In this document: positions 1,602 to 18,716 of the stretch, in pieces
Layout: each line of letters starts with the position of its first letter
Position numbering within the stretch: the stretch's first letter is position 1
Assembly (NCBI RefSeq): GCF_000442275.2
Contig: NZ_KE557306.1
Coordinates: forward strand, 1,150,959 to 1,214,958
Source of the DNA: Litoreibacter arenae DSM 19593
GTDB taxonomy: Bacteria; Pseudomonadota; Alphaproteobacteria; Rhodobacterales; Rhodobacteraceae
Direction of reading: 5' to 3'
Length of the DNA: 64,000 nucleotides
Program-made: the position numbers and the translations under genes
The notes under the pieces: generated by a model
Database searches by the model: none
Seen by the model: the letters and a program-made list of their open reading frames with translations, nothing else
Told to the model about the DNA's origin: nothing

Positions 1602-2615
1602 ATGACCAACACCAATGCCCTCAGCCGCCTTCTCGCAGAGCGTGACTGGATTCTCGCGGACGGGGCGACCGGCACGCAATTGTTCAACATGGGACTAAGT
1701 GCTGGTGATCCACCCGAGTTGTGGAATGTGGATCACCCCGACCGCATCCGCCGGTTGTATAGCGAAGCGGTCGACGCGGGCTCAGACTTGTTTTTGACAA
1801 ACACATTCGGCGGCAACGCGTCCCGCCTTAAGCTCCACAACGCCCAAGACCGCGTGTTTGAGCTAAACCGCGTCGCTGCCGAGATCGGTCGTGACGTGGC
1901 GGATGCCTCCGGTCGCGTGGTCGTGGTCGCAGGCTCGATGGGCCCGACAGGTGACATCATGGCCCCGATGGGCACCCTGACCCACGAGAGCGCGGTGGAG
2001 ATGTTCCACGAACAGGCCGAGGGCCTGAAAGCGGGCGGTGCGGATGTGCTCTGGTCGGAGACCATTTCCGCCCCCGAAGAATTGAAAGCAGCCTCTGAAG
2101 CCGCCAAGCTTGCGGGTATGCCGTGGTGCGGCACCATGAGTTTCGACACCGCCGGTCGCACGATGATGGGCCTGACCTCTGCCGGACTGGCAAAACTTGC
2201 AGACCGTTTGCCGCAAAAGCCGCTGGCGTTCGGCGCTAATTGCGGGGTCGGCTCGTCCGACCTGCTGCGTACTGTTCTGGGGTTCAGCGACAGCGACCTG
2301 GCCGTTATCGCCAAGGGAAACGCGGGTATTCCCAAATTCCACGACGGACATATCCATTACGACGGCACGCCCGAACTGATGGCCGATTACGCCTGTCTTG
2401 CCCGCGACTGCGGCGCGACAATTATCGGGGGGTGTTGCGGGACAACGCCAAAGCATCTGCGGACAATGCGAGCCGCGCTGGAGTCCCGCCCCCGTGGGCC
2501 ACGCCCGACGCTGGAGCAGATCACCGAAGCGCTTGGTGGTTTCTCATCCGAAAGCGATGGCACCGATGGCGCTGGCCCCGCCGCGCGGGTCACCCGCCGT
2601 CGCGCGCGCAGCTAA
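1602..2615 (+). CDS. bmt: Zinc-dependent homocysteine S-methyltransferase (Bmt-like)
   Basis: The 337-residue protein is a Pfam S-methyl_trans barrel. It carries the N-terminal DGATGT motif (residues 20-25) and the three zinc/thiolate cysteines, Cys214 in GANCG and Cys278-Cys279 in GGCCGT. It transfers a methyl group to homocysteine to make methionine. Automatic annotation in Rhodobacterales is often betaine-homocysteine methyltransferase. The nearby stand-alone B12-binding protein (3887-4591) makes it equally likely to be the homocysteine half of a split methionine synthase. The C-terminal ~40 residues are low-complexity and Arg-rich. It converges on the radical-SAM gene with a 10 nt gap. 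Confidence 0.85.
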   Translation: MTNTNALSRLLAERDWILADGATGTQLFNMGLSAGDPPELWNVDHPDRIRRLYSEAVDAGSDLFLTNTFGGNASRLKLHNAQDRVFELNRVAAEIGRDVADASGRVVVVAGSMGPTGDIMAPMGTLTHESAVEMFHEQAEGLKAGGADVLWSETISAPEELKAASEAAKLAGMPWCGTMSFDTAGRTMMGLTSAGLAKLADRLPQKPLAFGANCGVGSSDLLRTVLGFSDSDLAVIAKGNAGIPKFHDGHIHYDGTPELMADYACLARDCGATIIGGCCGTTPKHLRTMRAALESRPRGPRPTLEQITEALGGFSSESDGTDGAGPAARVTRRRARS

Positions 2616-2625
2616 GACGCGCGTC

Positions 2626-3729
2626 TCAGAAGAGGCTAAGCTGGTCGCCTGCCTGTGCGGGCACCGTGAACAAATCCGTCCGAAGGCTGGGAAGATGCTC
2701 TGTCAGTCCGAATCTCTTGCAAGCTGCCTCAAAGCGACGTCGCATCAAGTCGGCATGAACCCCCTCCCCCCGCATGCGATGGCCGAAACGCGGGTCGTAG
2801 TCGCGCCCGCCATGCATTTGCCTCACACGGCCCATCACCTTTTCGGCACTGCCCGGCACTTCACGCGCAAGCCAGTCCTGAAAAAGCTCCGACACCTCGC
2901 GCGGCAGGCGCAGGCTGATCGTGCTGGCCCCAACCGCGCCAGCATTGCGGGCTTGCTGCAAGATGGCCTCCAACTCATGATCGGTGAGGCCCGGTATCAT
3001 CGGCGAGGCGCTGACCCGCACGGGGATACCGGCCTCGGCCAGCCGCTCGATCGTCTTGAGGCGCCGCGCGGGCGACGGGACACGCGGCTCCATCTGCCGC
3101 GACAGTTTCGCGTCCAGTGTGGTCACGGAAACCGCGAGGGAGGCGAGCTTTGCCGCCGCCATCTCGCCCAGAATGTCGATGTCACGCTCGATCAAGCTGC
3201 CTTTGGTCACGATGGCGACTGGATGGCGAAACCTCTGCAACACCGCCAACACAGCGCGCATGATGCGCCGGTCTTTCTCGATGGGCTGGTAGGCGTCGGT
3301 GTTGGTGCCGATTGCCAACACCTGTGCGCGGTAGCTCGGGCGGCGCAATTCCCGCTCCAGCGCCTCTGCCGCGTTGGGTCGTGCAATCAGTCGCGTCTCG
3401 AAGTCCAGGCCCGGCGACAGCCCCAGATAGGCGTGGCTGGGGCGCGCGAAGCAGTAGATGCAGCCGTGTTCACATCCGCGATACGGGTTGAGCGACCGGT
3501 CAAAGGATATGTCCGGCGACGTGTTGCGCGTGACCACCTTGGTAATCGTTTCGCAAGCGACCTGCGTGCGGCGCAGCGGCACCTCGTCGTCAGGGATGCC
3601 CCAGCCATCGTCGACCACCTCGCGGGCGACGGCCTCAAAGCGGCCCACCTTGTTTTCAGACGCGCCACGCCCCCTTACCCGGCCGGTCAGGCGCTCCGAT
3701 CCCTTTGCAGTTGCGGCATTTTTCTCCAT
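2626..3729 (-). CDS. PA0069-family radical SAM protein (SPL-like), probably SOS-induced
   Basis: The 367-residue protein has the radical-SAM cluster motif Cys86-x3-Cys90-x2-Cys93 (RGCEHGCIYC), followed by FARPSHAYLGLSPGLDFE, typical of the family annotated as PA0069 or DNA repair photolyase/SPL-like. It should bind a [4Fe-4S] cluster and cleave S-adenosylmethionine; the substrate is unknown. I chose the ATG at 3729 because a perfect alphaproteobacterial LexA box lies 13 nt upstream (3742-3756). A longer frame to 3798 would place that box inside the gene. SOS control fits a role in DNA damage repair or tolerance. Confidence 0.85.
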   Translation of the reverse strand: MEKNAATAKGSERLTGRVRGRGASENKVGRFEAVAREVVDDGWGIPDDEVPLRRTQVACETITKVVTRNTSPDISFDRSLNPYRGCEHGCIYCFARPSHAYLGLSPGLDFETRLIARPNAAEALERELRRPSYRAQVLAIGTNTDAYQPIEKDRRIMRAVLAVLQRFRHPVAIVTKGSLIERDIDILGEMAAAKLASLAVSVTTLDAKLSRQMEPRVPSPARRLKTIERLAEAGIPVRVSASPMIPGLTDHELEAILQQARNAGAVGASTISLRLPREVSELFQDWLAREVPGSAEKVMGRVRQMHGGRDYDPRFGHRMRGEGVHADLMRRRFEAACKRFGLTEHLPSLRTDLFTVPAQAGDQLSLF

Positions 3730-14349: not shown

Positions 14350-15897
14350 TTACATTCCCCGTAGGTCCTGCGCGTAGAGGTGGTAAATCTTCGGGTCGAA
14401 AATCGAATTTACCGGCACCGGCTTGCGGGGCATCAGATCGGACGAAAAGACTTGGGCGGCCGCAAAGCTGTCAGAAGACATGGATCGCAACCCTTGGGGA
14501 AACGGGCGCATAGAATTGCCCTCGCCCTTGCTGGCAAGGTGAAAACCCCAAATCCCGAAGGAAGGGATTGGCGTCTGATAGCTGACTATTTCCGGGAACA
14601 TCTCTTCAAGCGTTTTGGCCACGGTCCAATAGGAATGGGTCGCAAAGAAGGGTGAGGAACTTTGGCTGACCAAACTCGCGTCGTCGGTCATGATTGCCGC
14701 GACCATGGCGTAGAACTCCACCGAGTAGAGCTTGGCCAGCGCCTCGTTATGCGGGTCGGGAAAGTCGATGATAATCCGGTCATAGACCTCTGTGCTGTCC
14801 TTCACATAGACGAAGGCGTCCATGTTGTGGATATGCACCTTGGGGGAAGCCAGCGAGTTGCCGTTGAGGCGGGTAATGGGCGCAAACTCGGTGCCGAGCT
14901 TGGTCATTTCGGGATCCAGATCGACCAGATCAATGCGCGTGACGCTCGGGTATTTCAACACCTCGCGCACGGCTAGACCATCACCGCCGCCGAGGATCAG
15001 CACCTTTTCGGGCGGTTTTCCCCAGCTGAGGACGGGATGCACCAAGGCCTCGTGGTAGCGGTATTCGTCCATCTCGGCGAACTGCAAATGTCCGTCGATG
15101 AACAGCCGGACATCGCCGTTGTTCCACGTATTTGTCACCACCAACGACTGGTAAGCTGACTGCTTGCGCCATACAACACGGTCAAAATACAGGTGATCCT
15201 GCGCGAAGGCGGTGATCTTTCCCGCCAGCAAGGTCAGCGCCACCAAACCGACGATTGTAGCGACCACATAGGCCAGAATCCGGTTCGGCGCGTCGAAGTG
15301 ATCGCGCAGCCAGAGCACACTGAACAGCGCGACCATGGCGTTGATCAGGCCAATGGCGAAGGACGCGGTGATCAGACCCAAGGAAGGCAGCAGCAATATC
15401 GGAAAGGCGACCGAGCCGATCAAGGCACCCAGATAGTCGAGCGACAGCACGTCCGCCAATGACTCCCGCGTGGTGGAGCGTTGCGACAGTACCCGTGTCA
15501 GGATCGGGATCTCCAAGCCCACCAAGAAGCCGATGGTCGAGATGAAGGCAAACATGCCCACGGTGTAGAACCACGGGGCGGTCGGGAAGAGCATGAACAG
15601 CGAGATGCTGCACAAGCCACCGACCAGAGCCAAGATCAGCTCGATATAGACAAAGGCCTGAATCAGATTGCCGCCAATGAACCGCGACACGTAGGACCCT
15701 ATTCCCATCGCAAACATGAAGAAACCGATAGTCAGGGAGAATTGGTACACGGAATTGCCCAGCAGATAACTGGAGACGGTGCCGATGATCAACTCATAGA
15801 CGATACCACACAGGGCGACGACGAGGATTGAACACAGAAGGACAAGGGCCTGCTTGCGCGGCAAGGAGGTGTAGTCAAAATCTTTGGTCTGGGACAC
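14350..15897 (-). CDS. Membrane-embedded spermidine synthase-like aminopropyltransferase
   Basis: The 515-residue protein fuses a six- to seven-helix membrane domain (about residues 17-225, LVLLCSILVVALCGIVYELI onward) to a SpeE-like catalytic domain. The catalytic part shows HLQFAEMDEYRYHEALVHP, VLILGGGDGLAVREVLKY (SAM/dcSAM loop), DLVDLDPEM and IIIDFPDPHNEALAKLYS with the active-site Asp. It should move an aminopropyl group from decarboxylated SAM, made by the SpeD encoded upstream, to an amine acceptor at the membrane. The stop region can form a hairpin with arms GGACCTA/TAGGTCC (14341-14368). Confidence 0.88.
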   Translation of the reverse strand: MSQTKDFDYTSLPRKQALVLLCSILVVALCGIVYELIIGTVSSYLLGNSVYQFSLTIGFFMFAMGIGSYVSRFIGGNLIQAFVYIELILALVGGLCSISLFMLFPTAPWFYTVGMFAFISTIGFLVGLEIPILTRVLSQRSTTRESLADVLSLDYLGALIGSVAFPILLLPSLGLITASFAIGLINAMVALFSVLWLRDHFDAPNRILAYVVATIVGLVALTLLAGKITAFAQDHLYFDRVVWRKQSAYQSLVVTNTWNNGDVRLFIDGHLQFAEMDEYRYHEALVHPVLSWGKPPEKVLILGGGDGLAVREVLKYPSVTRIDLVDLDPEMTKLGTEFAPITRLNGNSLASPKVHIHNMDAFVYVKDSTEVYDRIIIDFPDPHNEALAKLYSVEFYAMVAAIMTDDASLVSQSSSPFFATHSYWTVAKTLEEMFPEIVSYQTPIPSFGIWGFHLASKGEGNSMRPFPQGLRSMSSDSFAAAQVFSSDLMPRKPVPVNSIFDPKIYHLYAQDLRGM

Positions 15898-15930
15898 GCA
15901 GGAATGCTCCGCAGCGAGAGGTTTTGCATG

Positions 15931-15965
15931 AAAAAGGCCCAGTGCGGATTACGCAACTGGGCCTT
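15931..15965 (-). terminator. Intrinsic terminator inside the polyamine operon
   Basis: Arms AAGGCCCAGT / ACTGGGCCTT with an inner TGCG/CGCA extension are followed on the minus strand by TTTTT. It lies between the EF-hand-like gene and the SpeE-like gene, so it may limit expression of the latter. Confidence 0.8.
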
Positions 15966-15984
15966 GGCTTGACTTGAGGCAGAA

Positions 15985-16572
15985 TTACTTGCCCGCGCGC
16001 GGACCACCCGAGCGTGCGGAGGATGGCGCACGGTAGCTGCTGCGCGGGGTCACGTTGCGGTTGTTGAAGCTGCCCTTGGCCACGCCTGCACCGCGCTGGC
16101 GCGACAGCAGATTGCCAAGCAGAACGCCCGCCAGCAGGCCGGTGCCGGAGAAACGCAGACCGGACGAGTTACCGGCCACATCGGTGGCGATCAGGCGCTT
16201 GTTCTCTTCGTCGATCTCGACGGTAAACACCTTGCCCTCGCCTTCATCCTGCACGCCGTTGGCATTCTCGTCAGCAAAGCCCAAGAAGGTCGCGTCTTTC
16301 TGCACTTCAAGGCCAAGGGTCTTGTCATAGAAAGGCGGTGCAGAGTTCAGCACTTCGGTAAAGAAGCCGGTGAACTGGCCCATCTCGTTATCAGCAACCT
16401 CGGTGATGTTGTTTTCTTTCAGGTAGCCGTCATAGCGGATCAGCGCGAATTCGGTGCGGTCAAGAACCTGACCCAGATCTGCCGTCTGCTCGGACTTGTC
16501 GCCGAAAAGCATCGGGAGGCCGACGAAAGCCACGATGGCGACGATTGCAATAAGTTTAATTTTTCCAAGCAT
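15985..16572 (-). CDS. Single-helix membrane protein with EF-hand-like loop
   Basis: The 195-residue protein has one N-terminal membrane helix (residues 5-23, with Gly and Pro inside it). A globular domain follows, carrying DENANGVQDEGEG (about residues 101-113), which looks like a calcium-binding DxNxNGxxD loop. Next is a glycine-rich hydrophobic stretch (GTGLLAGVLLGNLLS) and a basic Ser/Arg/Gly-rich tail. The tail recalls YgiB/DUF1190-type proteins that neighbour glutathionylspermidine-synthase-like genes, but I cannot assign the family. It is the third gene of the speD operon. Confidence 0.75.
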   Translation of the reverse strand: MLGKIKLIAIVAIVAFVGLPMLFGDKSEQTADLGQVLDRTEFALIRYDGYLKENNITEVADNEMGQFTGFFTEVLNSAPPFYDKTLGLEVQKDATFLGFADENANGVQDEGEGKVFTVEIDEENKRLIATDVAGNSSGLRFSGTGLLAGVLLGNLLSRQRGAGVAKGSFNNRNVTPRSSYRAPSSARSGGPRAGK

Positions 16573-16618
16573 TAATTAGATTCCTGTTTCTTGATACGTT
16601 CGCGTAGGTAAATGCGTT

Positions 16619-17896
16619 CTACTGGTTCGCTAAAGAGCACATCCACCATACTTGATGCAATCCCAAGCTATAGTAATCCGTTAATTTGCCCGCCTCTTTG
16701 AAACCATGTGTCTCCAATGCCTCAGCGTTCTCGCGCGACAGGTCGCTGGGCAAGGCTATAACGGCAATGCGGGCTTGTTGACCGCGCGCTTTTTCAAGGT
16801 AGTGATCCAGCCCTGCGACACCCGCAGGGGTCTCCTGCCAGATCAGCCCGACGACGCCCTTTGTCTCAGGCTCGGGCGCTATACCCGAAATCGCGATGCC
16901 GGTTTTCTCGCTTGGCATAGGCGGCTCCCCGGCTTGGAATTCCGGGTTCTCCAGTCCGTAGACAATCTTGGCTTCGCCTACATTGTGATAGTCAGGCAGG
17001 GTCATTTCGACCTCCGCACCGAAATCTTCGTACATCCTGTGCGCCCCCGCATAGATCGAGCGCCCGAAGTCTTTGTAGTCGCTGGTTGCGATGAACACCT
17101 TGCGGTAGCCCTGCTTGTTGAGCTTCCCCAGCAGGTCGTTCATCATCTGCGAACCGTAGCCCTGCCCCAGATATTCCTGCGCCAGATAGGTCCAGGACAG
17201 CCAGCACACATCATCCACCTGATCGTCCGGCTCATAGCCAGTGACGCCCACTACCCTGCCCTTGTGCATCAAGACGAACATGCCATCGACACCTTCGTCC
17301 AGCAGCAGGTTCTCGGCCTCGGCGGCGTCGTCTTCATCGGTCTCGTTGATGATGGCCACAACCTGGCTCACATGGGAATACTGCATGGGCTTCAGCGTGG
17401 GGTGTTTGCTGCCGAATAGCGAAGATAACATGGCAAAACTTCCTCCAATAAGAGTTGAGAGCAGATGGGGGTAAATCGCGATTTTGTCGGAAAGCCAATA
17501 GATTTCCGCGCCAAGCACTGCGGCGATCGCCACTGCAACCCAGATTTGGTTTTCAGGACGGACCGTAGTCAGAACGGCACAGGCAATCATCGCGTAGACG
17601 GGGCCGGACAGGCCGACGAAGGCGGGTCCGACAAGATAGAATTGGGCGATAGTGCCAAGCACGGCGGATAGCGCCACCATGACCAATGTCCAAGCGGAGC
17701 CAAGACGGGACTCTGTTATCGGACCGGCGATCAGCAGGAGCGCCACGTTCAAGCCGACATGCCGAATGTTGCCATGACGGAACACCGCCAGCAGCGCGTC
17801 CGCCAAGTTGTCAGGGGGCGCATCTGGCGACGCAGCGCCGAAACCCAGATACCCGATGATCGCCAGTGCACAAAGCGCCAGCGTGACGGGCATCAT
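16619..17896 (-). CDS. Rhomboid-like membrane domain fused to GNAT acetyltransferase
   Basis: The 425-residue protein has an N-terminal six-helix membrane domain with all rhomboid hallmarks: His46-x3-Asn50 (RHVGLN), the nucleophile Ser97 in GLSGPVYA, and His144 before a GG pair (YPHLLSTLIGG). After residue ~170 comes a GNAT domain (FVLMHKGRVVGVTGYEP, then the acetyl-CoA loop EYLGQGYGSQMM), and a C-terminal region that looks like a second, degenerate GNAT half (about 330-425). It lies 14 nt behind speD, so a link to polyamine-like chemistry is likely. Whether it cleaves, acylates or both is unknown. Confidence 0.8.
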   Translation of the reverse strand: MMPVTLALCALAIIGYLGFGAASPDAPPDNLADALLAVFRHGNIRHVGLNVALLLIAGPITESRLGSAWTLVMVALSAVLGTIAQFYLVGPAFVGLSGPVYAMIACAVLTTVRPENQIWVAVAIAAVLGAEIYWLSDKIAIYPHLLSTLIGGSFAMLSSLFGSKHPTLKPMQYSHVSQVVAIINETDEDDAAEAENLLLDEGVDGMFVLMHKGRVVGVTGYEPDDQVDDVCWLSWTYLAQEYLGQGYGSQMMNDLLGKLNKQGYRKVFIATSDYKDFGRSIYAGAHRMYEDFGAEVEMTLPDYHNVGEAKIVYGLENPEFQAGEPPMPSEKTGIAISGIAPEPETKGVVGLIWQETPAGVAGLDHYLEKARGQQARIAVIALPSDLSRENAEALETHGFKEAGKLTDYYSLGLHQVWWMCSLANQ

Positions 17897-17910
17897 TTTG
17901 ACGATGTTGA

Positions 17911-18321
17911 TTATGCCGGAGCCTTCGAGACCGGCGCTGCCATCGCAGGAACTTGACCGCGCCGCAGTGTTTGGACCTCTTCGTGCGACGGCTGAAAGAA
18001 GTCACGCAGCCGGTTCAGGCTCAATTCCGGCTTGGCATCTCCGCACATGAATATGTCTACGGCGACGTAGTCGTACTCGGGCCAGGTATGCACCGAGATG
18101 TGAGACTCGGCCAGCAATGCCACCCCCGTGTATCCGGCCCGGTCGCCGAAATCGTGCATCCGAACGTCCAACACCACCGCGCCTGCCGCGTCGGCCGCTT
18201 GGGTCAAAGCCTCGATGCTCGACGGCCCCGCCTCCAGAAGGTTTCGTGCGCCATGGAAATCCGCGATGATGTGTTGCCCCAAAACGGCGGGAGGGAAGGT
18301 CTTGATGGAAATATCGTTCAC
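17911..18321 (-). CDS. speD: S-adenosylmethionine decarboxylase proenzyme
   Basis: The 136-residue protein is a class-1b SpeD. The self-cleavage site is Glu72-Ser73 in ESHISVHTWPE; the new N-terminal Ser becomes the pyruvoyl cofactor. The VLDVRMHDFGD and AVDIFMCGD segments are also standard. It supplies decarboxylated SAM as aminopropyl donor, here for the membrane SpeE-like enzyme. It is the first gene of the minus-strand operon. Confidence 0.95.
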   Translation of the reverse strand: MNDISIKTFPPAVLGQHIIADFHGARNLLEAGPSSIEALTQAADAAGAVVLDVRMHDFGDRAGYTGVALLAESHISVHTWPEYDYVAVDIFMCGDAKPELSLNRLRDFFQPSHEEVQTLRRGQVPAMAAPVSKAPA

Positions 18322-18611: not shown

Positions 18612-18716
18612 ATGGCCTATCAAGCACCAGCGCAGACTCCGCGTCCGGAGCCGCAAGACACGAAATCACCGCGTCCAACACCGCCCGAGGGCTTCTCTGA
18701 CTGGGCCAGTCTATAG
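18612..18716 (+). CDS. 34-residue Pro-rich micro-ORF
   Basis: An ATG at 18612 follows a perfect AGGAGG (18598-18603) by 8 nt. The peptide begins MAYQAPAQTPRPEPQDTKSP and ends PPEGFSDWASL. It has ten prolines, no Cys, no hydrophobic segment and an aromatic C-terminal end. A hairpin sits just upstream, and a terminator-like hairpin follows 25 nt after the stop. The gene is divergent from speD. The strong ribosome site and its bracketing by structured RNA suggest a real small protein. I do not recognise it. Confidence 0.55.
   Translation: MAYQAPAQTPRPEPQDTKSPRPTPPEGFSDWASL

Follow-up and report, generated by a model that had tools for sequence, protein, structure and literature searches.

In the genome of Litoreibacter arenae DSM 19593, a stretch of 64,000 nucleotides (here called the window; all gene coordinates are window positions) harbors a minus-strand operon at 14350-18321. 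It encodes, in the order of transcription, the S-adenosylmethionine (AdoMet) decarboxylase SpeD, a fusion of a rhomboid domain with a GNAT acetyltransferase domain, an anchored protein named P195 in this analysis, and a membrane-embedded SpeE. These four genes are a real module, which some marine bacteria carry. The explanation favored here, tentatively and with somewhat less than even confidence, is that the membrane SpeE would transfer aminopropyl groups to P195, which ends in an invariant lysine. The operon had been noticed in a preliminary description of this DNA, and its coordinates and gene order are confirmed here. The intergenic gaps, in operon order, are 14, 46, and 87 bases.

17911 to 18321, minus strand: speD, 136 amino acids, AdoMet decarboxylase class 1b
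16619 to 17896, minus strand: rhomboid-GNAT fusion, 425 amino acids
15985 to 16572, minus strand: P195, 195 amino acids, anchored protein
14350 to 15897, minus strand: membrane speE, 515 amino acids

Among 295 genomes of the family, rhomboid-GNAT and P195 were each found in six, and these are the same six genomes, belonging to six different genera; a second genome of Litoreibacter's own genus has neither. Six shared genomes represent one of 8.7e11 possible subsets of 295, a figure which has to be read with the reservation that the genomes are not independent. The order speD, rhomboid-GNAT, P195, speE is kept in all five other family genomes. Within the class, a full-length rhomboid-GNAT was present in one of 289 genomes, the own genome, and two partial matches were found elsewhere. 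A wider, pattern-based and non-exhaustive scan of one genome per species (84,980 species) revealed 25 loci. Here, 23 are real relatives, while L044 and L045 are weak partial GNAT matches and were excluded; five of the 23 genomes had already been recovered as family hits, so that the two surveys overlap. Near the rhomboid-GNAT gene of the relatives P195 is present in 23 of 23 cases, SpeE in 22 and SpeD in 20. In the locus without a visible SpeE (L022) 5,000 bases read N, which is a gap or a masked stretch, and three loci lacking the rhomboid domain as well as an adjacent SpeD (L039-L041) lie on short contigs. In two further loci (L042, L043) the P195-SpeE pair is divergent from the rhomboid-GNAT-SpeD pair, which indicates that the genes stayed together through rearrangement. 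UxaC and Ndk, which flank the operon in the window, matched nothing in any of the 25 loci fetched. The neighborhood analysis that the preliminary description had called for thus shows the four genes conserved together. That they are chance neighbors without joint function, for which solely the rarity of the module speaks, is extremely improbable and is counted as already refuted by the identical genome distribution, the cohesion despite rearrangement and the flanks that are not kept. For the three alignments used below, the near duplicates L024 and L027 were excluded, and in addition L029 from that of rhomboid-GNAT and L041 from that of SpeE.

The central protein of the favored explanation is P195. 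An alignment of 23 copies, including the window copy, to which the others are 40-75% identical, together with hydropathy and charge reveals a hydrophobic anchor at the N-terminus and, following it, a loop resembling an EF-hand, a short segment with a glycine zipper and a tail that is strongly basic.

16237 to 16272, minus strand: P195 residues 101-112, DxNxNGxxDxxE loop (23-copy alignment)
16102 to 16146, minus strand: P195 residues 143-157, glycine-zipper hydrophobic segment (23-copy alignment)
15988 to 15993, minus strand: C-terminal Gly-Lys of P195, with Lys195 as the proposed aminopropyl acceptor (conserved in the window and in all 24 copies from relatives)
15934 to 15965, minus strand: terminator-like hairpin followed by a T run, between P195 and speE (comparative script, loose criterion)

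Within the loop, D101, N103, and N105 are invariant, and D109 and E112 are kept in at least 90% of the copies. A calcium loop had been described for this protein. The loop itself is present, but its match to SdrD_B is below threshold (E 0.008 in the window copy; with E up to 5 allowed, 12 of the 23 copies match, the best of them with 3e-4) and no Pfam family is reached above cut-off. NCBIfam likewise gave no match at E up to 1. In the zipper segment G145, G149, and G153, followed by R158 and Q159, are invariant, and more than 35 residues follow the hydrophobic segment. The last 40 residues contain 8-12 lysines and arginines and only 0-2 acidic residues. All 25 copies considered (24 from relatives and the window copy) end in Gly-Lys, whereas the last residues of SpeE and of rhomboid-GNAT vary among the relatives. 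A lipobox-like LSGC start is present in two relatives, and therefore the body of the protein should be outside. In the AlphaFold2 (AF2) model of P195 (pLDDT 79, pTM 0.77) confidence is low solely for the residues preceding 28 and for those from 189 onward; according to this model, the tail may be ordered for the most part, with its last residues free. A Foldseek comparison of the model with the PDB yielded no fold match (best E 0.17). In one relative, an uncultured Hyphomonadaceae (L036), two tandem P195 genes are found at positions 1761-3063 of that locus, each with the -GK end.

The hairpin and T run between P195 and speE were detected in 16 of 23 loci under the loose criterion, in comparison to 0-11% per locus in mononucleotide shuffles. 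This suggests that P195 is made in excess over SpeE, which would suit a substrate or a protein with a structural role.

The second carrier of the argument is SpeE, which scores 127.9 bits against Spermine_synth (PF01564, cut-off 22.9) and 586.3 bits over residues 11-512 against the membrane SpeE equivalog NF002956 (PRK03612, cut-off 472).

15229 to 15858, minus strand: SpeE residues 14-223, N-terminal membrane domain of seven helices (AF2 helices, hydropathy in 40 sequences, K+R pattern)
14353 to 15180, minus strand: SpeE residues 240-515, aminopropyltransferase domain (PDB profile matches; Foldseek E 2e-16 to 1uir)

The AF2 model (pLDDT 84, pTM 0.57) contains the seven membrane helices. All 40 membrane SpeE proteins compared keep D306, D360, D378, D381, and Q412, the positions that in soluble enzymes bind decarboxylated AdoMet (dcAdoMet) and the acceptor amine. 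Since the binding residues are intact, the membrane SpeE should be a functional aminopropyltransferase. With respect to topology, the mean number of lysines and arginines in 20 sequences is 2.2 in the N-terminus and 1.65, 3.05, and 2.15 in loops 2-3, 4-5, and 6-7, respectively, while loops 1-2, 3-4, and 5-6 of the same sequences have 0, 0, and 0.1. The other 20 membrane SpeE proteins have a similar pattern, except for 0.75 in loop 1-2. By the positive-inside rule this would place the N-terminus inside and the catalytic domain outside. The scarcity of cysteine is weakly consistent with an outside domain: 36 of 40 catalytic domains are without cysteine, and five fetched soluble SpeE proteins of the family carry 1-2 each. 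Residues 294-447 of SpeE (gene at 14353-15897, minus strand, in this search) also match the PADLOC model mad2 with an E of 4e-15; a defense role was not adopted from this match, which is probably due to a shared synthase fold.

The SpeD protein is recognized by PF02675 (AdoMet_dc; 107.7 bits, cut-off 25) and by TIGR03330 (108.2 bits, above the cut-off of 75.65). It contains an ESH motif with Ser73, which is presumably the processing site, and is the sole SpeD in the genome. Some relatives of SpeD act as ornithine or arginine decarboxylases, and genomes with such an altered SpeD are described as lacking the canonical ornithine decarboxylase (ODC) and arginine decarboxylase (PMC10407285). The host genome, unlike these, has an ODC-like gene, and together with the family score this favors a true AdoMet decarboxylase.

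The rhomboid-GNAT fusion reaches 50.5 bits against PF01694 (Rhomboid, cut-off 22.6) and 42.5 bits against PF00583 (Acetyltransf_1, cut-off 20.7), so that the identities previously given for this protein as well as for SpeD and SpeE are all supported above the Pfam cut-offs.

17429 to 17797, minus strand: residues 34-156, rhomboid domain (PF01694; GlpG structures, 67 bits by profile)
17078 to 17329, minus strand: residues 190-273, GNAT acetyltransferase domain (PF00583; match to 2r7h)

In the 21-row alignment Ser97, His144, His41, His46, and Asn50 are kept in all 18 rhomboid-bearing members. Here, we take Ser97 and His144 to be the catalytic residues and H41, H46, and N50 to be the H..N motif, and the rhomboid domain is thus intact-looking as a protease. 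The GNAT domain is present in 21 of 21 members and, because of the six rhomboid helices, should be on the cytosolic side. The C-terminal domain, about residues 328-425, is without a family assignment; a second GNAT was considered for it and not assigned, as hhalign gave a probability of 61% (E 8e-5) over a part of the domain only.

The genomic background (14 contigs, 99.96% complete) is relevant for what SpeE would act on. No soluble SpeE is present, since PF01564 matches the membrane SpeE and no other protein of the genome, and no BpsA-type aminopropyltransferase (PF01861), DUF350 or DUF1190 (PF06693) was found in the genome. The earlier statement that a cytosolic SpeE is missing therefore holds genome-wide. 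The statement that no putrescine-forming enzyme is present is true for the operon but not for the genome, which encodes an apparently ODC-like protein (closest structure the lysine/ornithine decarboxylase 2PLJ with 200 bits; below the NCBIfam cut-offs). In addition, a homospermidine synthase is encoded (713 bits to 4PLP; Sacchrp_dh domains; no NCBIfam match). A triamine can thus probably be made without this operon. As this separate route needs neither SpeD nor SpeE, it is reasonable to consider an aminopropyl transfer to something other than an ordinary polyamine, and to this extent the interpretation of the preliminary description, which saw an aminopropyl group made or attached at the membrane, is in line with the joint conservation and the distinct partners of the genes.

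In the favored explanation, SpeD would make dcAdoMet, which would be used by the seven-helix membrane SpeE, the sole aminopropyltransferase found in the genome (PF01564 and PF01861 searched). SpeE would then aminopropylate membrane-anchored P195 at its invariant C-terminal lysine, whose side chain would become -(CH2)4-NH-(CH2)3-NH2, a spermidine arrangement on a protein. This particular product, an N-epsilon-(3-aminopropyl)lysine forming a spermidine-like protein end, is doubtful if taken by itself; it is plausible insofar as the lysine side chain resembles half of putrescine and as lysines of diatom silaffins carry aminopropyl units (PMC3820600). The rhomboid-GNAT fusion would serve in maturation or control, either by cleaving P195 or some partner in the envelope or by acetylating the newly added amine; this part of the explanation is the weakest. 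The outcome would be an anchored, polycationic protein at the envelope, comparable to the DUF1190 lipoproteins beside YgiC/YjfC, while homospermidine, the free triamine of the cell, should come from the separate ODC-like protein and homospermidine synthase. The acceptor of SpeE is inferred rather than proven, and the P195 tail is favored over a lipid or a free polyamine.

The analogy with DUF1190 started from a search of the P195 profile in 299 genomes of the phylum, in which up to 10 candidates per genome were scored. Besides the own genome it gave one match, with an E of 8e-7, in genome G691. This protein is a DUF1190 lipoprotein whose gene has a DUF350 gene as immediate neighbor on one side and a GSP_synth (YjfC-type) gene on the other. 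In E. coli K-12, ygiB and yjfM, both of them DUF1190 genes, immediately precede ygiC and yjfC, which are annotated as peptide-spermidine ligase. Pederick et al. 2023 is cited by other papers in connection with these ligases. The tails of DUF1190 proteins are -GG in 18 of 24 fetched open reading frames (ORFs) and in both E. coli copies (YgiB, YjfM); here, 25 of 28 loci were examined, three weak loci of genome G743 being excluded, L121 gave no ORF, and where a locus had several, the ORF with a DUF1190-like tail was chosen by eye. This suggests that the DUF1190 C-terminus is the site for the neighboring peptide-spermidine ligase. Both systems would combine an anchored protein or lipoprotein with an adjoining polyamine-transfer enzyme, and both partner proteins have a glycine-zipper-like segment, a Ser/Gly/Arg tail and a mostly fixed C-terminal dipeptide. 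In contrast, the DUF1190 systems use an ATP-grasp ligase, which joins spermidine to a peptide, whereas the operon has an aminopropyltransferase and no ATP-grasp, and P195 ends in -GK and not in -GG. The analogy would therefore be one of layout and genetic setting, not of chemistry or proven kinship.

Several observations weigh against the favored explanation. The compartments are hard to reconcile, as the SpeE domain is predicted outside while dcAdoMet is made inside, which raises a problem of supply, and the GNAT domain is expected inside. The P195 tail could be on either side of the membrane, the 14-residue zipper being borderline as a membrane span. The rhomboid domain is absent in 3 of 21 members, one of which is possibly truncated, with the GNAT domain kept. 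The hairpin is absent in 7 of 23 loci, and a general terminator scan, which found 4 against 4.4 expected, did not list it (loop limit of the scan 8). Regarding DUF1190, the carboxyl end of the peptide is, to judge from the name of the ligase, thought to be joined to spermidine, so that no amine would be extended. Further, P195 matched the DUF1190 family profile (built on ORFs selected for their tail composition, which retained 22 of 25 loci, together with the two E. coli proteins) with a probability of 17% over 16 columns, those of the glycine zipper, and E. coli YjfM alone with 0.7%, and in a similar phylum sample DUF1190 occurs in 25 of 249 genomes, yet the P195 profile matched one such protein. 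Column shuffles and the reversed DUF1190 family gave at most 0.3% against P195, and the G691 protein alone aligns with P195 at 94% over 55 columns, including the zipper region. At E up to 5 the 23 P195 copies together matched 15 families, and PF06693 (cut-off 22 bits) is absent from these. Homology of P195 and DUF1190 was rejected as a claim due to the weak family-level match, and the resemblance in layout was kept.

Among the alternatives, the membrane SpeE may make a small aminopropylated polyamine at the membrane, either spermidine out of putrescine or aminopropyl-homospermidine, for export or storage, with rhomboid-GNAT acetylating it and P195 acting as receptor or chaperone. All tested catalytic residues of the soluble aminopropyltransferases are kept, the closest structures of the SpeE domain are polyamine aminopropyltransferases, including triamine/agmatine types, and the genome encodes the ODC-like enzyme and homospermidine synthase. 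GNATs often acetylate amines. Nevertheless, this is rather unlikely, as SpeE sits in the membrane and is inherited together with P195, an anchored protein of invariant C-terminus, and as Li et al. 2019 reportedly found no spermidine with membrane SpeE fusions.

Alternatively, the acceptor may be a lipid head group or another envelope amine, for example an amino lipid, while P195 and rhomboid-GNAT would sense the state of the envelope. The seven-helix, MFS-like membrane domain would fit to this, as would the link of SpeE clusters to membrane dynamics drawn in PMC11237479. Also, 23 positions are fixed differently between the SpeE proteins of this module and those of the other membrane-SpeE loci of the family (at two of them the other group has a gap), and the membrane domain contains 16 of the 23. 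Since no lipid-modifying gene was found in the operon by a Pfam scan of the window proteins and the invariant -GK of P195 would stay unexplained, a lipid acceptor is considered unlikely.

A regulated-proteolysis circuit of the envelope stress type, in which P195 would be cut by the rhomboid, a signal would come from the fragment set free or from the GNAT domain, and aminopropylation would adjust the response, is improbable. It would make use of the rhomboid catalytic residues found in all 18 rhomboid-bearing members and of the layout of P195, an anchor followed by a second, glycine-rich hydrophobic segment and basic residues, which loosely resembles the GlyGly-CTERM arrangement described in PMC6219818. 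On the contrary, P195 has no NCBIfam match at E up to 1, too many residues follow its hydrophobic segment (more than 35), three members dispense with the rhomboid domain while keeping GNAT, and no regulator gene is present among the four genes. A comparison with rhombosortase and its GlyGly-CTERM targets leads to a similar picture: a rhomboid lies beside a protein with glycine-rich, hydrophobic and basic parts in this C-terminal order, but the TIGR03902 score of 29.3 bits is below the cut-off of 84, the P195 segment is internal and the rhomboid is fused to GNAT.

Clusters of SpeD and a membrane SpeE are already known and occur in many bacteria (PMC11237479). This source describes a seven-transmembrane SpeE in a cluster that also includes a lipoprotein as well as DUF350 and DUF4178, and proposes that such clusters may sense polyamines or aminopropylate other substrates. 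The operon resembles these clusters in combining a class 1b SpeD with a seven-helix SpeE, as NF002956 recognizes the window protein and 20 family relatives. It differs in having neither DUF350 nor DUF4178 but rhomboid-GNAT and P195 instead. A PspA/CesT partner is absent among the four operon genes and the identified flanks UxaC and Ndk; the remaining genome was not searched for PspA. The word rhomboid does not occur in the main text of PMC11237479, and among the papers listed by literature searches limited to open-licence PMC papers none reports a rhomboid-GNAT with SpeD/SpeE.

Within the family, NF002956 is above cut-off in 25 of 295 genomes, six of which hold the rhomboid-GNAT module. The 20 remaining membrane-SpeE genes were fetched with up to 15 kb. 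Neither rhomboid-GNAT nor P195 was matched at any of these 20 loci, and a SpeD match lies nearby in seven. This agrees with the earlier view that the partners differ from those of known clusters. Pfam typing of sampled neighbors identified two DUF4178 proteins in L089 and one DUF350 each in L095 and L097, while a DUF4178-like frame in L095 gave no Pfam match. A DUF4178b-like protein was recognized in 17 of the 20 loci by a motif pattern, which is not a family test. The two groups of SpeE are at most 43% identical to each other, in comparison to at least 54.6% within the rhomboid-GNAT group.

In the four-gene variant, the usual partners are replaced by one anchored protein with a fixed C-terminal lysine. 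This provides a specific candidate acceptor, in which a single residue could be mutated and a single mass sought. If the explanation is true, the module would be a bacterial system of post-translational aminopropylation and a counterpart of the silaffin lysine modification. The silaffins of diatoms share aminopropyl units on protein lysines and Ser/Gly/basic sequences (PMC3820600), but are eukaryotic and consist of repeats with many lysines. By a different chemistry, the end would be similar to that reached by peptide-spermidine ligases on DUF1190-type lipoproteins.

A sigma-70 promoter scan found none, in comparison to 2.2 expected. Upstream of the operon, on the opposite strand, a proline-rich open frame of 34 residues is located at 18612-18716 (plus strand), which bears no sign of being a gene.

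The DUF4178b-like proteins of the other membrane-SpeE loci (L079-L098) were also inspected for tails like that of P195, and none resembles it. They have a different fixed end: in 17 of 17 the chain closes with a hydrophobic stretch, then basic residues, then DW and acidic residues, with SDW in 13. Both kinds of cluster are present in Pseudaestuariivita rosea (genome G507) on different contigs (L035 and L089), with DUF4178 confirmed in L089, so that the two can be compared in one naturally occurring strain.

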